NCBI GenBank assembly: GCA_009702245.1
Contig: WLIL01000004.1
Span: 1 to 32,853, forward strand
Origin: Actinomycetota bacterium
GTDB lineage: Bacteria > Actinomycetota > Actinomycetes > Nanopelagicales > Nanopelagicaceae
Reading direction: 5' to 3'
DNA: 32,853 bases
Part shown: piece after piece, positions 10,088 to 18,179 of the stretch
Layout: each line of letters opens with the position of its first letter
Position numbering within the stretch: position 1 is the first letter of the stretch
Notes under the pieces: generated by a model
The model's database searches: none
The model's input: the letters and a program-made list of their open reading frames with translations, nothing else
What the model was told of the DNA's origin: nothing
Position numbers and translations under genes: made by a program

Positions 10088-10389
10088 TACTTTGCCTCCT
10101 TCGCTGCTGGCTTTTTATTACCTTTAAACATTTCTAACATGCGATCGGTCACCACGAAGCCGCCGACCATATTGATGGTGGCTAGCACGACGGCGATGAG
10201 GGAAAGCGTGAGTGGAAACGCGGAGTCGCTATGTCCCGCGACAATGATGGCGCCGACGAGAATGACGCCGTGAATTGCGTTAGCACCACTCATGAGCGGT
10301 GTGTGCAATGTGGTGGAAACTTTGGAGACCACTTCGAATCCAACGAAGACTGCTAGGACGAAGATCGAAAGGAGTGCGATGACGCTCAT
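10087..10389 (-). CDS. pntAB: NAD(P) transhydrogenase subunit alpha, membrane part (alpha-2)
   Basis: Three TM helices; 'TPLMSGANAIHGVILVGAI' signature. Confidence 0.95.
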   Translation of the reverse strand: MSVIALLSIFVLAVFVGFEVVSKVSTTLHTPLMSGANAIHGVILVGAIIVAGHSDSAFPLTLSLIAVVLATINMVGGFVVTDRMLEMFKGNKKPAAKEAK

Positions 10390-11513
10390 GCTTGGCCTCC
10401 TGCAGCCGGTGGCTTAGGTAATCGTTGGGTTCCGTTATGTGTTGCGGCTGATGCGTCAACAATTTCGTCTTCAAAATCAGGCGTGACCACGCCTTCCTTT
10501 GTCATGAGGAGCAAGAGATTGACGATGTTTCGGGAGAGGAGTTGGCTGGCGTGATACGGGAGTTGGCTGGGTACATCTTTGCCACCCCAGATCGTGACGC
10601 CGGCGGGTGTCTTAATGGTTTCCCCGGCCACTGAACCTTCGACATTGCCACCACTTTCAGAGGCGAGATCGACGATGACTGACCCTTCCTTCATGCCGGT
10701 CATCATCTCTTTAGTAATCAGTCGAGGAGCCGTACGACCGGGAACAGCAGCAGTGGTGATCACTACATCGGCAGCTGCAATATGAGGAGCGAGAAGATCG
10801 CGTTGGCGCTGGGCGCGGGCTTCATCCATTTCGCGTGCATAACCACCGGCGCCTTCGAGTGCTTCCAATTCCAATTCGATGAAGGTGGCGCCCATTGAGC
10901 GCACTTCATCTGCAGATGAGGAGCGCACGTCGTAGGCCGAAACGACACCGCCAAGCCTGCGGGCGGTCGCGATGGCTTGCAAACCAGCGACACCGGCACC
11001 GAGTACGAGCACTTGAGCGGGAGTGACGGTGCCCGCGGCGGTCATCAGAAGCGGAAAAAAGCGCGGTGATAATTCTGCGCCGACGAGTGCGCACCGATAT
11101 CCAGCGCAGAGGGCTTGCGACGTCAGCGCGTCCATTGATTGCGCACGCGAGATACGAGGGATCGCTTCAAGTGAGAAGGAAGTTGCCTTAGCCGCCACTG
11201 ATGCCGCGATGCTCTCGGTTGCCGAATGAATAGGCAAGAAAGAAATCGTGATGGTGCCTGGTCGCAGCTGACCGAATTGTTCGTTTGTTATCGGCACGAC
11301 GCTGGCTACTACATCGCCCTCGGCGAAAGCTGCAGTAGGGGAGATCGTGGCACCAGCAGTGCGGTAGAGCTCATCACCGAAACCGGCAGATGTGCCTGCG
11401 CCGCTTTCGATGGTGACATCTAAGCCGTTTTGCTTGAGACGACCAATAACATCTGGGGTGATGGCGACCCGGCGCTCGCCCGTACGGGACTCTTTTGGTA
11501 CAAAAATTCTCAT
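10386..11513 (-). CDS. pntAA: NAD(P) transhydrogenase subunit alpha, NAD-binding part (alpha-1)
   Basis: 'MRIFVPKESRTGERRVAITPDVIGRLKQNGLDVTIESGAG', 'VLVLGAGVAGLQAIATARRLGGVVSAYDVR'; overlaps the next gene by 4 bp. Confidence 0.96.
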   Translation of the reverse strand: MRIFVPKESRTGERRVAITPDVIGRLKQNGLDVTIESGAGTSAGFGDELYRTAGATISPTAAFAEGDVVASVVPITNEQFGQLRPGTITISFLPIHSATESIAASVAAKATSFSLEAIPRISRAQSMDALTSQALCAGYRCALVGAELSPRFFPLLMTAAGTVTPAQVLVLGAGVAGLQAIATARRLGGVVSAYDVRSSSADEVRSMGATFIELELEALEGAGGYAREMDEARAQRQRDLLAPHIAAADVVITTAAVPGRTAPRLITKEMMTGMKEGSVIVDLASESGGNVEGSVAGETIKTPAGVTIWGGKDVPSQLPYHASQLLSRNIVNLLLLMTKEGVVTPDFEDEIVDASAATHNGTQRLPKPPAAGGQA

Positions 11514-11604: not shown

Positions 11605-12450
11605 TTATGAGGTGATGTCTTTCCGGGCAAACTTGGCGGTCGCGGCTCCGACACAGAGCGCGAAGGCGATGAGCGAGTAGGACGCTCCGCGCACCATAGC
11701 GCTCCAGTCGATCTCTGTAGCCAAGGCATCAAGCCATGCATAGGCGTAATGGGTAGGAAGCCAATTGCGCAGTGACCCGAGTGCGCTAATAGCGTTAAGA
11801 ATATTACTTATGATAACTATGCCTACTGCCGCCCCCACTGCGCCGAGGGGAGCATCGGTCGTTACGCTCATAAGAAAAGCTAGACCTGCGCAGAAGAGTA
11901 GCGAGAGCGCCAGAAATGCGGTCATAATCGCGATGCGTTGGATTCCGACGCCTTGCGAAAACGTGGCACCGAGTGGAGTTTGCAGGCCACCAAAGCCAAA
12001 AGTAATTCCGCCGATGATGTAAGAAGCGATAGGCAATAAAAGAACAGCGCCACCGGAAAGCGTAAGACCCACGAATAGTTTCTGGCGAAGTAAACGCGCC
12101 CGCGGAACTGGCGAGGCGAGCAAGTAACGAAGTGTGGACCAGGATGCTTCACTGGCTACCGTATCTCCACAGAAAATTGCTACAACGGTAATCAAAACAA
12201 ATCCGGTAGCGAAGTAGAACATCGTTGCAGTGAAGTTCGCCGCGCTATGAGTTGCCAGACCGATCAGATCGAGTCCGCCGCCGCCGAATTCATCGCCACC
12301 ACCGTCGCTCGACGGACCGAACTTCACAGCTCCCGCCACAATAAGAGGCAATGCGACGATAAATAGGTAGGCGATCAACGTGCGTTTGCGCCTAACCTGA
12401 CGAATAAGTTCCACCCGGAAGGGAAGCGTGTGAGCCGCTTGATAACTCAT
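11605..12450 (-). CDS. ABC transporter permease (ABC-2 type)
   Basis: Six or so TM segments; start codon shares a base with the stop codon of the upstream hydrolase-ABC fusion gene (TAATG-type junction). Confidence 0.85.
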   Translation of the reverse strand: MSYQAAHTLPFRVELIRQVRRKRTLIAYLFIVALPLIVAGAVKFGPSSDGGGDEFGGGGLDLIGLATHSAANFTATMFYFATGFVLITVVAIFCGDTVASEASWSTLRYLLASPVPRARLLRQKLFVGLTLSGGAVLLLPIASYIIGGITFGFGGLQTPLGATFSQGVGIQRIAIMTAFLALSLLFCAGLAFLMSVTTDAPLGAVGAAVGIVIISNILNAISALGSLRNWLPTHYAYAWLDALATEIDWSAMVRGASYSLIAFALCVGAATAKFARKDITS

Positions 12451-14933
12451 TAGATTCCAATCTCCGTATCTTCGCCGACTAGATCCATAAATATCTCTTC
12501 CAGATGCTGTGCTCTTTTGCCATTTCGGTTGAGAATCTCATCGATGGTTCCTGATGCAATCAATAGACCCCTATGCATCACAACTACATGAGAGCAGGTC
12601 TGTTCGACTTCAGAGAGTAAGTGTGATGAAACAATGACGGTACGGCCGCTCTCCGCATAATTCTTGAGGATAGAACGCATCGCTTTGATTTGTGTGGGGT
12701 CAAGCCCATTCGTGGGCTCATCGAGTACGAGCAACTCTGGTTTACCGAGCATTGCTTGTGCGATTGCTAGCCGTTGGCGCATGCCTTGGCTATAAGTACG
12801 CACCTTTTTATTGACTGCAGTGCCTAAGCCGGATATTTCAAGCGCATCAGCGATTTCTGGGTCGTCGCTGCGACCAGTCGATCGCCAGTAGAGGTCGAGG
12901 TTTTCACTTCCAGTGAGATGAGGAAGAAATCCAGGCCCTTCAACAAAACTTCCGAGCCCAGAAAGGGCGCGCGATCCGGGGAAGACTGGTACTCCAGAAA
13001 TCTCGATCTCACCCGAAGTCGGGAAGATCAATCCCATCAACATGCGCAAGGTGGTGGTCTTTCCCGCACCGTTTGGTCCCAGCAGACCGACTACTTGTCC
13101 ATGTTCTACCGTGAAGGAGAGATCCGTGACTGCTTTATACCCATCGTCGTACTGCTTATTAAGAGCTCGCACAGAGACTAAGGGCGCATCGCTTTGGGGC
13201 TCTTTCATTGCAGGATGGCGAGGGCGCCTGATGAATACCCAGAGAAGTGAAAGACCGAAAGCCCCAACCGCAATCAACGGCCACAGGTATAGCGGAGTAT
13301 TACTTGGTGCATTCTTAAGCGTCATGGTTGAAACAAAGAGCGGTGATAGTGGGGTGATCGAATAAACCCGACCGTCTTGTGGCATTGCGTATCCAAGATC
13401 CGTAGTGGAAACAGCCAGTGCAATGCGATCTCCCGGAGTCGCGTTTGTGACTATTGCCGGCAGCTCTACATCTATATCAATTCCGTTGGCGGGAATGCCT
13501 AGAAGTCGCACGGGCGCAACAAGGCCATTTGGTTGAGTGGTGCGCCCGCTCTCACTCTTTACGATCAAGGAGAAGAAGAGGGTGGCATCTCCCGTTGTAC
13601 TGGCCACGCGTACTTTTACACTCGAAGCACCAATGATGGGGAGTTGCGCGGTGAGCGGTGCAGATTCGAAGAACGCGCTTTGGCCAGGGAGGAAGGCGCC
13701 GAGTCCGCCCGCCAGACTCAATGCGCTACCGAATCCGGGGAGTGCTGACACGGCTGATGGCGCAGCGCCGGCAGGTGCGAGGAGGACTTTGCTTTTGCTA
13801 GTAATGGCAAGGGCTACGGAAGTGGTGGCGAGGGGGAGCGAAGTTCCTATTTGTACTCGTGCTTCAGGGGCGGAATCTTGCGAGGAGATTGCGGCGGCAC
13901 TCTGGGTTAATTGAAAAGTGGGAAATGAGTGTGCTTTTTTGGCGAGGTAAATATCAAACCAATTCGCCACCTGTCCTTGCAGGCGCTTACTTTCATCTTG
14001 TCCACCGTCGTGTCCGCCGCTATGCCAAATCATTGCTAGTGGTGTTGCAGGATGTGCGTCGCGGATTGATTTCGCAGTTCGTGTGCTCTCTGTGAGAGGA
14101 AAGAGCGAATCGGCTTCGCCTTGCATAAGCAGTGTGGGTGCCACAATGTCTTGTGCGTAGGTAGTTGGTGAAACCGCCTTCATGAGCGTAGTGATTGCTG
14201 GGCTCGGAGCGTTTTGGGCAACGCTCATTTGATACGCGGCACACCACTCGGGTGCGAATCGGCCGCAGAGAAGAGTCTGTGGGGTAGGCGTTGTTGTAGC
14301 ACTCCTCATGCCTAACGATCCAATGGAAAAGAATGTTCCAGTCCAGACGCGTTTAAAGGGACCAGGTTCAGCAATGCCTAGTGCACTTTGTGGAAAGAGT
14401 GCGCCTTCAAGGTTATTCCAGGTGATATCTGCGGCGATCGCATCGATGCGCTGATCTCGCGCGCCTGCAAGTAATGAGATGGCGCCACCATATGATCGGC
14501 CAGTGATTCCCACGCGGGGGTCATTTTTCTTATCCTGAATTACTTCTTTACGATTACCCAGATAGTCGATGAGTTTTGCGACATCCACCACTTCGCGATC
14601 TGGTGAGTTCATAGAAATTGATCCGGTGGAATTCCCAAATCCGCGAGCACTCCATGCCAAGACCACAAATCCGCGCGCCTGCAGCGCTTTTGCTTCCTCG
14701 GTTACTGAATCTTTGCTGCCCCCAAATCCGTGTGCCAGTAGAACTGCGGGCGCGGGAGAGTTGGCCGGAAGATAAATCTCCCCGTCGATTTTGATCGGGG
14801 TTGCATCGCTCGATGAAGTAGGGCCGCCGGATACGGTGATTGAACTCGTAGATGTAGCGGCGAGTGCAAGCGGTGCGCCAAACGGTGCGACGGCAAGGAT
14901 GAGCGCGGTAAGAAGGATTAAACGTGTGCGCAT
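12450..14933 (-). CDS. Fusion protein: secreted alpha/beta hydrolase (CocE/X-Pro dipeptidyl-peptidase-like) + TM helix + ABC transporter ATP-binding domain
   Basis: ORF 12450..15026; preferred start MRTRLILLTALILAVAPFGAPLALAA at 14933 (signal peptide). Hydrolase: 'GRSYGG' nucleophile elbow, 'MQGEADSLFP', 'HSGGHDGG'. TM 'LYLWPLIAVGAFGLSLLWVFIRRPRH' about 13230-13305. NBD: GPNGAGKTT, YSQGMRQRLAIAQAM, LLVLDEPTNGLD. Confidence 0.93.
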   Translation of the reverse strand: MRTRLILLTALILAVAPFGAPLALAATSTSSITVSGGPTSSSDATPIKIDGEIYLPANSPAPAVLLAHGFGGSKDSVTEEAKALQARGFVVLAWSARGFGNSTGSISMNSPDREVVDVAKLIDYLGNRKEVIQDKKNDPRVGITGRSYGGAISLLAGARDQRIDAIAADITWNNLEGALFPQSALGIAEPGPFKRVWTGTFFSIGSLGMRSATTTPTPQTLLCGRFAPEWCAAYQMSVAQNAPSPAITTLMKAVSPTTYAQDIVAPTLLMQGEADSLFPLTESTRTAKSIRDAHPATPLAMIWHSGGHDGGQDESKRLQGQVANWFDIYLAKKAHSFPTFQLTQSAAAISSQDSAPEARVQIGTSLPLATTSVALAITSKSKVLLAPAGAAPSAVSALPGFGSALSLAGGLGAFLPGQSAFFESAPLTAQLPIIGASSVKVRVASTTGDATLFFSLIVKSESGRTTQPNGLVAPVRLLGIPANGIDIDVELPAIVTNATPGDRIALAVSTTDLGYAMPQDGRVYSITPLSPLFVSTMTLKNAPSNTPLYLWPLIAVGAFGLSLLWVFIRRPRHPAMKEPQSDAPLVSVRALNKQYDDGYKAVTDLSFTVEHGQVVGLLGPNGAGKTTTLRMLMGLIFPTSGEIEISGVPVFPGSRALSGLGSFVEGPGFLPHLTGSENLDLYWRSTGRSDDPEIADALEISGLGTAVNKKVRTYSQGMRQRLAIAQAMLGKPELLVLDEPTNGLDPTQIKAMRSILKNYAESGRTVIVSSHLLSEVEQTCSHVVVMHRGLLIASGTIDEILNRNGKRAQHLEEIFMDLVGEDTEIGI

Positions 14934-14938
14934 GGTGA

Positions 14939-15883
14939 TTACGCTAGCCGCCCCTTGATGTCTCCGCGAATTAAGTGAAAGAGGGCAGATTGAATGGTGG
15001 TGCGGCGATGGTAGGCCTCGCGCCATACGACCGATCGCGGACCGTCGATCACGCCGGCGCTTACTTCTTCCCCACGATGTGCCGGGAGGCAGTGCATGAA
15101 AATACCATCGGATGATGCGCTTGCCATGAGTGCATCAGTGACTGCGAATTCACCAAGAGCGGTAAATTTTTCAGCACGATCCGCCTCGGAATCTCCCATC
15201 GACATCCATACGTCGGTGTAGATAACGCTCGCATCGCGGCAAGCACTCTTCACATCGTGTGTGACTTCGATGGTGCCTCCGGTGGTGCGAGCCAATTCTT
15301 CAGTGCGGGCGACGACGGAGGCATTAGGCGCCCACTTACCGGAGGGGGTGGCCACCACAACGTGCGCGCCAAGTACCGCACCCATTTCGAGCCAGGTGTG
15401 TGCCATGTTGTTTCCATCGCCGACGTAGGTGAATTTACGATTACTGAAATCATTTCCAAAATTCTCTCGGATGGTTAACCAATCGGCGAGCGCCTGAGTG
15501 GGATGGTCATCATCGGTGAGTGCATTGATCACTGGAATTGAGGCGTTGCTAGCTAATTCCTCTACATCGCTCTGAGCAAAAGTGCGAATGATCATCGCTT
15601 TCGCATAGCCACTGATGATGCGCGCGGTGTCTGCAATGGTTTCCCCACGACCGAGTTGAAGTTCATCGGCGCGTACAAATATTGGTGTTCCGCCCAGATG
15701 TGCCACGGCAGTCTCGGATGCAAGACGTGTACGAGTAGAGGGTTTAGTCATATGGATGACAACCGTCTCGCCAGCGATGAAGGAGCGCTCTGCAAGAGGT
15801 GTTTTAGCAAAGCGGGTCGCGGTATCGAGGAGTAACTCCACGTCTTCGCGCAATAAATGATCGGTACGAATGAGATCCTTCAT
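14939..15883 (-). CDS. argF: Ornithine carbamoyltransferase
   Basis: 'KPSTRTR' carbamoyl-phosphate motif and 'HCLPAHRGEEV' ornithine-binding motif. Confidence 0.95.
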   Translation of the reverse strand: MKDLIRTDHLLREDVELLLDTATRFAKTPLAERSFIAGETVVIHMTKPSTRTRLASETAVAHLGGTPIFVRADELQLGRGETIADTARIISGYAKAMIIRTFAQSDVEELASNASIPVINALTDDDHPTQALADWLTIRENFGNDFSNRKFTYVGDGNNMAHTWLEMGAVLGAHVVVATPSGKWAPNASVVARTEELARTTGGTIEVTHDVKSACRDASVIYTDVWMSMGDSEADRAEKFTALGEFAVTDALMASASSDGIFMHCLPAHRGEEVSAGVIDGPRSVVWREAYHRRTTIQSALFHLIRGDIKGRLA

Positions 15884-16415: not shown

Positions 16416-18179
16416 ATGAGTAGAAGAGCGTGGATTGCAGGCAGCGCCGTTGTGACGATGCTCTGCTCTTTGCTTATCGTGGGTGGGCGGGCACTGCCTG
16501 CCCAGGCCGCTAATGATGATCCACCTCGAAAGATTGTTACTGGGTGGATGCCTTATTGGAATACCAAGGGCGGGATGGCCACCATCATGGCTAATGCGGA
16601 TCTCTTCCCAGAGGTGATGCCCTTTTGGTTTTCGGTGAAGAGCCAAACAAATGTCTTAGATCAATATGACCCAGCAAATGCCGCACCAATGGCAGATCAA
16701 GTGAAGGCGCTCCAGGCCGCTGGAATAAAAGTCGTTCCCTCACTGACCGACGGCACAGGAAAATTGGCGATGCAAAAAATTTTGGGTGATGCCACCAAAC
16801 GTGCACAGTTGGTAAAGACCTTGGCAGACCTTGCAGTCAAAAATGGATTCGATGGTTTGGATTTAGACTGGGAGGGCTTTGCTTTCACAGATGGCACGGC
16901 ATCATGGGCGGTAACGTCGCCGCTCTGGACAACATTCGTCAAAGAGCTTGCCATCAAGCTGCATGCACAGGGAGATATTCTTTCGGTGACGACCCCCGAT
17001 GTGCGCGACCCAGCGTCTGGAAAAAAGGGTTACTGGGTTTATAACTGGCCGGAAATCGGGCCGGTAATTGATCGCCTCCGCATCATGACCTATGACTACT
17101 CGGTTGCTAATCCGGGACCAATCGGTCCGCTCTCCTGGGTGGATCAAGTTACCAAGTACGCAGCCACACTCATGGCGCCGTCCAAGATTTGGGTTGGCGT
17201 ACCTACCTATGGGCGGGATTGGGTTATCGCAGTGGACGGAAGATGCCCGGATGGCGTAGATCTCAAGGCTCCCAAAGGTGCAACTGCTGGTACAAAAGCA
17301 GTAGTTAATTCCAGGGATGCTGCGGCGCTTGCCGCAAGTTATCAAGCCACACCGGTATGGACTGAGTCGTATGGGGAGTACTCCTTTAATTACACCAAGG
17401 TCTATGCGCCTGCAGACGGCGCGGCTGAAAAGACTTGTGTTGTTACCCGGACCGTGTGGTATCAAGATGCTCGCTCGGTAGCCGCACGCGCTGCTCTTGT
17501 TGCGAAATATAAAATTGGTGGAGTCGCCTTTTGGAGTTTGGGAATCGAAGATCCACTCACTTGGCCTTCAGTTCGACTTTATGCAAAGACGATTGCTCCT
17601 GATGTTGTTCTAGGAAGCATTGATGCGCCATCAACTCCGGTAGATTTTGCAACGCCGGTCACCCTTACAGCAACTTTCAAAGTTTCTGATTCGCGCCCAG
17701 TCGCTGGAGCGCCCATTTCATTTCAGATTATGCGAAATAGCGATACTGATTGGCGCGAAATTGCTACAGCAACAACTTCAGTAACTGGGGTGGCCCAAAT
17801 CAAATTAGTGGCTTCGCAATACGTGCAAGTGCGCGCAGTGGCGGCAGGAACCTGGGAGAGGCTGACCGGAACCTCGCCGGCAAAGAACATCGCGGTACAG
17901 CGACTCATTGGTTCACTTGGGGTGAACGCGCCACGCCTTGGTTCCAAGGTCGTTGTGAAAGCCCAACTCTTGCCCGCCCAGGGCGTTGATGTCGTCCTAG
18001 AAGAGTGGATAGACGGAACTTGGGTCGCAGTTTCATCAGGGGCCAGTGGAAATGATGGCGCTATTTTGCTCACCGCCACTGTGCGCCAAGCTGGATTCCA
18101 CACTTATCGCGTAAGCGCACGCTCAGATAGCTACTTCGAAACCGTGTTAAGCCAAGCTATCTCCACAATCGTTAGATAA
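16416..18179 (+). CDS. Secreted glycoside hydrolase family 18 protein with C-terminal beta-sandwich/Ig-like domain(s)
   Basis: Signal peptide MSRRAWIAGSAVVTMLCSLLIVGGRALPAQAA; GH18 motif 'FDGLDLDWEGF'; 'RLRIMTYDYS'; C-terminal 'TPVTLTATFKVSDSRPVAGAPISFQI' Ig-like stretch. Confidence 0.9.
   Translation: MSRRAWIAGSAVVTMLCSLLIVGGRALPAQAANDDPPRKIVTGWMPYWNTKGGMATIMANADLFPEVMPFWFSVKSQTNVLDQYDPANAAPMADQVKALQAAGIKVVPSLTDGTGKLAMQKILGDATKRAQLVKTLADLAVKNGFDGLDLDWEGFAFTDGTASWAVTSPLWTTFVKELAIKLHAQGDILSVTTPDVRDPASGKKGYWVYNWPEIGPVIDRLRIMTYDYSVANPGPIGPLSWVDQVTKYAATLMAPSKIWVGVPTYGRDWVIAVDGRCPDGVDLKAPKGATAGTKAVVNSRDAAALAASYQATPVWTESYGEYSFNYTKVYAPADGAAEKTCVVTRTVWYQDARSVAARAALVAKYKIGGVAFWSLGIEDPLTWPSVRLYAKTIAPDVVLGSIDAPSTPVDFATPVTLTATFKVSDSRPVAGAPISFQIMRNSDTDWREIATATTSVTGVAQIKLVASQYVQVRAVAAGTWERLTGTSPAKNIAVQRLIGSLGVNAPRLGSKVVVKAQLLPAQGVDVVLEEWIDGTWVAVSSGASGNDGAILLTATVRQAGFHTYRVSARSDSYFETVLSQAISTIVR

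Follow-up and report, generated by a model that had tools for sequence, protein, structure and literature searches.

A widespread actinobacterial fusion of an alpha/beta hydrolase with an ABC ATPase, paired with an ABC-2 permease, as a candidate exporter with a built-in outer hydrolase

Related enzymes and transporters

The lipase PaL (8yzn, 8yzo), CocE and the NonD hydrolases combine a hydrolase domain with a PepX_C-like beta-sandwich. The outer part of the fusion protein described here shares both domains and the order of the catalytic triad with them, and a profile spans both domains; PaL, CocE and NonD, however, are free enzymes without a transmembrane (TM) helix or an ATPase, at about 20% identity to the outer part. 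PaL was the best match in both profile and Foldseek searches (TM 0.75 on target), followed in Foldseek by CocE (TM about 0.6 on target), X-Pro dipeptidyl peptidase and amino acid ester hydrolases. Because the nearest folds are PaL and CocE and not PepX, the outer part was not assigned as an X-Pro dipeptidyl peptidase proper. No publication on the PaL structure was found.

The DRA-type ABC-2 exporters, of the DrrAB, BcrAB and LanFEG kind, share the two-gene unit and the ABC-2 permease with this locus, and the subfamilies to which the ATPase is closest by score are those of exporters or of drug and lantibiotic resistance, namely lantibiotic protection and DrrA. In contrast to the fusion, these exporters have no hydrolase, and all the scores of the ATPase lie below the curated cut-offs (TIGR03740, 187 bits against 310; TIGR01188, 179 bits against 312). 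By fold the ATPase is nearest to 1vpl and NosF, and by sequence to ABCA-type ATPases, 1vpl and NosF. NosDFY also resembles the locus in that NosY is the nearest solved fold of the permease and an outer functional partner is present, but NosD is a separate, non-enzymatic protein, the system has no hydrolase, and identity to NosY is about 16%; no nosD-like gene or other common neighbour was found across the fusion loci. PADLOC matched the ATPase part only and gave no match for the permease, and assignment to a known anti-phage defence system was rejected.

The best described case of a comparable plan is in Streptococcus agalactiae, where a membrane-anchored outer serine protease, NSR, and an efflux ABC transporter, NsrFP, act against nisin (PMC5786555). 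The likeness is an analogy of plan only, in that a protease fixed to the outer side accompanies an ABC transporter for efflux, whereas NSR and NsrFP are separate proteins of other protease and transporter families, and their system includes a two-component system. A search of open-access text found no study of a hydrolase-ABC ATPase fusion.

Architecture of the fusion gene

The window, by which we mean the whole analysed stretch of 32,853 nucleotides, carries the fusion gene on its reverse strand, with the following features.

12450..14933, minus strand: hydrolase-ABC ATPase fusion gene, an 827-aa stop-free open frame with Pfam domains, one frame in the 105 retrieved sequences
14859..14933, minus strand: predicted signal peptide, residues 1-25 (MRTRLILLTALILAVAPFGAPLALA), read off the sequence; relatives have an N-terminal hydrophobic segment
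13929..14849, minus strand: predicted exoplasmic alpha/beta hydrolase domain, residues 29-335; Peptidase_S15 E 1e-17; AF2 model matched by Foldseek to PaL 8yzo and CocE
14493..14495, minus strand: catalytic Ser147 (GRSYGG), invariant in 105/105
14265..14267, minus strand: Cys223, proposed disulfide with Cys231; pair present in 103 and absent in 2 of 105
14241..14243, minus strand: Cys231, proposed disulfide with Cys223; pair present in 103 and absent in 2 of 105
14109..14111, minus strand: catalytic Asp275 (EADSLFP), invariant in 105/105
14010..14012, minus strand: catalytic His308, the second His of HSGGHDGG, invariant in 105/105
13314..13856, minus strand: PepX_C-like beta-sandwich domain, residues 360-540; PepX_C E 5e-8; beta-rich in the model
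13227..13286, minus strand: single TM helix followed by RRPRH, residues 550-569; helix in the model, hydrophobic with a positive flank in relatives
12477..13178, minus strand: ABC ATPase domain, residues 586-819; ABC_tran E 4e-30; nearest solved folds 1vpl and NosF
13056..13079, minus strand: Walker A, GPNGAGKT; Lys625 in 105/105
12774..12791, minus strand: ABC signature SQGMRQ; S..GM conserved
12717..12734, minus strand: Walker B, ending in Asp738-Glu739; invariant where sequence is present

The initial annotation had read this region as a single uninterrupted ORF, and the 827 codons indeed run without a stop. An ATG at 15026 would extend the same frame upstream to 858 aa, but it would fall within argF and is an unlikely start; a start at the ATG at 14933, 5 bases past the argF stop codon, yields a clean signal peptide. 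The Pfam search proposed with that annotation placed Peptidase_S15 at residues 48-308, PepX_C at 418-519 and ABC_tran at 603-742 of the fusion, and ABC2_membrane_2 and ABC2_membrane_4 on the permease, each above its curated cut-off. In the AF2 model of the fusion (mean pLDDT 83, pTM 0.65), the hydrolase, the beta-sandwich, helix 550-569 and the ATPase are separate units, with a stretch of low confidence at residues 569-576.

The permease and the neighbourhood

11605..12450, minus strand: ABC-2 permease, 281 aa, with ABC2_membrane_2 and ABC2_membrane_4; on the same strand after the fusion in relatives; fold nearest NosY

The ATG of the permease shares one base with the TAA stop codon of the fusion (TAATG). 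Among relatives the permease lies next to the fusion on the same strand at every locus with enough contig, which bears out the earlier proposal of a dedicated downstream permease. The two genes mostly overlap or lie within about 100 bases of each other, and at three Lentzea loci they are separated by a few hundred bases on a crude measure. ABC2_membrane_2/4 domains were present in 18/18 permeases checked, so that an ABC-2 permease adjoins the ATPase; permeases of this type are chiefly exporters. The permease model (pLDDT 82, pTM 0.80) has NosY as its best match, a remote one (about 16% identity, E 5e-5), followed by PmtCD and ABCG transporters.

Upstream of the fusion, at a distance of 5 bases, lies argF for ornithine carbamoyltransferase (14939-15883, minus strand), a link seen within the genus only, and the permease is followed by a pntA-like transhydrogenase gene (10386-11513, minus strand). 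Across loci no neighbour gene is conserved outside the fusion-permease pair, and the pair has no accompanying regulator or biosynthetic cluster. Many Streptomyces fusions have inositol catabolism-like genes, iolB-like by eye, 5-8 kb upstream (for example L148, 3415-4239), and this synteny is read as position only. In a few Nanopelagicales, relatives of the window's order, a gene of a copper type II monooxygenase family neighbours the fusion (L094, L096, L097, L098); a secreted, PHM-like member is divergent to the fusion at L061:5711-6814 and L097:6716-7816, and a link of this neighbour to peptide modification is possible. The window also encodes, at 16416-18179 on the plus strand, a secreted protein of 587 aa that has the look of a GH18-type glycosidase by eye and recurs within the genus.

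Distribution across Actinomycetota

A sample of 298 genomes of the phylum gave the fusion in 19, the window's own genome not counted, and it also occurs in 7 of 23 relatives of the same genus or family, one of which ends at a contig edge before the ATPase. Among the best 80 loci in a survey of named genomes, hydrolase and ATPase lie in one frame in 76, and a contig edge cuts the frame in the other 4; some of these matches are closely related species or one genome reached twice, so that the loci cannot be counted as independent events. Among the hosts are Streptomyces, Kitasatospora, Actinomadura, Lentzea, Pseudonocardia, Geodermatophilus, Rhodococcoides, Williamsia and Nocardioides, as well as many freshwater actinobacterial metagenome-assembled genomes (MAGs), and a copy is carried on a Tsukamurella plasmid. 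No fusion outside Actinomycetota was seen among the best 80 loci or the plasmid matches listed. An artefact, a chance joining or a fusion created by sequencing error or frameshift was rejected, as dozens of independent genomes carry this fusion. The fusion with its permease gene is an old, well conserved arrangement across actinobacteria.

Three MAG records (L099, L101, L102) are titled Bifidobacterium breve, and their fusions are closest to freshwater actinobacterial ones (L102 in the tree); the titles are probably wrong. At two loci (L086:6134-11218 and L091:2820-7208), frames of 1694 and 1462 aa with provisional starts encode an S15-type hydrolase without the ATPase.

The initial annotation noted that similar fusions are auto-annotated in actinobacteria, and one such case is WP_232066410.1 of Tsukamurella tyrosinosolvens, the same fusion with a 4-base overlap to the next gene, 'ABC transporter permease'. 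Its RefSeq product name, 'alpha/beta fold hydrolase', omits the ATPase half; product names drawn from one half of the fusion hide the other. The domains are known, while their architecture is conserved but uncharacterised.

Active sites and sidedness

Conservation was counted over 105 fusion sequences. Ser147, Asp275, His308 and Lys625 are unchanged in all 105, and the residues of the ABC signature, Walker B and H-loop (His771) are unchanged wherever sequence is present. The hydrolase motifs named earlier from the sequence are present, their triad is confirmed by conservation, and the nucleotide-binding domain called complete in that reading holds its Walker A, SQGMRQ and Walker B motifs along with the H-loop, as in ABC ATPases. 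PF02129 was found in 24/24 aligned members, which together with the invariant Ser-Asp-His triad places the outer part with Peptidase S15/CocE-like enzymes, and PF08530, the PepX_C beta-sandwich, follows the catalytic domain in 24/24.

An N-terminal hydrophobic segment is present in 98/103 fusion sequences, and a TM segment ahead of the ATPase in 104/105, with a mean net charge of +2.7 after it and 0 before it. Furthermore, the outer part has exactly two Cys in 103/105 and none in 2/105, never a third, the pattern predicted for a disulfide bond in an oxidising compartment outside the cell. The predicted topology with the hydrolase outside and the ATPase inside, already put forward in the initial annotation, is strongly supported by the signal peptide, the TM segment with its positive inside flank and the all-or-none Cys pair.

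Origin of the fusion

Whether the hydrolase or the permease is the query, one set of genomes emerges, comprising the window's own and 19 of the 298 sampled. In the phylum-wide permease search, fusion loci fill the first 20 places (E 8e-111 or better), and after a drop in score the first unfused match follows at 3e-88; 20 permeases of this second tier were examined, and they adjoin ATPases without a hydrolase. Streptomyces genomes can carry both the fused and the unfused kind.

A joint ATPase and permease tree of 73 units, of a quick kind and with one unfused pair as outgroup, puts the fused units on one side of a single branch (SH-aLRT 89). Two unfused pairs are sister to the fused clade, and the other unfused pairs fall outside. 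The tree needs 1 change of the fused state against a shuffled mean of 16.2, and 0 of 500 shuffles were as low. One ancient origin of the fusion is suggested because the fused units form one clade among unfused ATPase and permease relatives. Most simply, the hydrolase would have been gained once and then retained; an early loss would also be compatible with the tree.

A proposed exporter with an outer hydrolase

A model is proposed, with a probability of about 0.5, in which the locus encodes an ABC-2 exporter whose built-in exoplasmic esterase or peptidase acts on the cargo at its exit. The two genes would form one exporter, (hydrolase-TM-ATPase)2(permease)2, in which two permeases would make the channel, and two fusions would supply two ATPases and two outer hydrolases, each ATPase being linked by one additional TM helix to a serine hydrolase of its own at the outer face. 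The cargo would most likely be an amphiphilic molecule containing an ester or peptide bond, exported or extracted from the membrane. Cleavage by the outer hydrolase at the exit would prevent its return, giving one-way removal, and export could in this way be coupled to inactivation or maturation.

This exporter model draws on the invariant triad, the intact ATPase motifs, the sidedness, the pairing with the permease, the in-step divergence of hydrolase and ATPase and the single fused clade, as well as on the esterase and peptidase kin of the outer part, the exporter-like scores of the ATPase and the likeness of the permease to PmtCD and ABCG. Against it, no conserved neighbour, regulator or biosynthetic cluster hints at a substrate, and a fusion by itself is no proof that transport and hydrolysis share one molecule. 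Nor is the system of NosY, the best fold match of the permease, known as a classical drug exporter. The hydrolase may well process what this transporter carries, as was suggested at the outset. A stronger form, in which the covalently attached serine hydrolase would be an obligate element of the transport cycle, coupled to ATP and cutting the cargo while it leaves, and which would define a distinct class of ABC exporter, is tentative and rather doubtful.

The hydrolase might instead be merely tethered, digesting esters or peptides outside on its own, with the fusion only determining where and in what amount it sits next to an unrelated exporter. The single TM link and the low-confidence linker near residue 575 would suit such an anchor, and relatives of both halves function alone in other proteins. 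However, the fusion has one origin and is retained across classes of Actinomycetota with both active sites intact and always with the same permease; the divergence of the hydrolase also tracks that of the ATPase (rank correlation 0.79, Mantel p 0.001), although common descent by itself would produce a correlation as well. Tethering is considered unlikely.

It is more improbable still that the ATPase acts on the outer domain and not on cargo, with ATP cycles opening or regulating the hydrolase through the permease and the extra TM helix in the manner of NosDFY or FtsEX. The folds nearest to the permease and near the ATPase, NosY and NosF, do belong to a complex that works with the outer partner NosD, but the NosY match is remote and the exporters PmtCD and ABCG come next. 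Nutrient uptake, by which the hydrolase would free a product outside for import, has very little probability: a secreted hydrolase adjoining a transporter is a common uptake arrangement, but there is no substrate-binding protein and the permease is of the chiefly exporting ABC-2 type.

Significance

If the exporter model is right, one chain would tie an outer enzyme to an inner ATP motor in bacteria from Streptomyces, Lentzea, Actinomadura, the Rhodococcus relatives and Tsukamurella to the freshwater Nanopelagicales. The pair would allow a clean test of whether transport is coupled to hydrolysis, and may perhaps represent a new route of resistance or of export with maturation.
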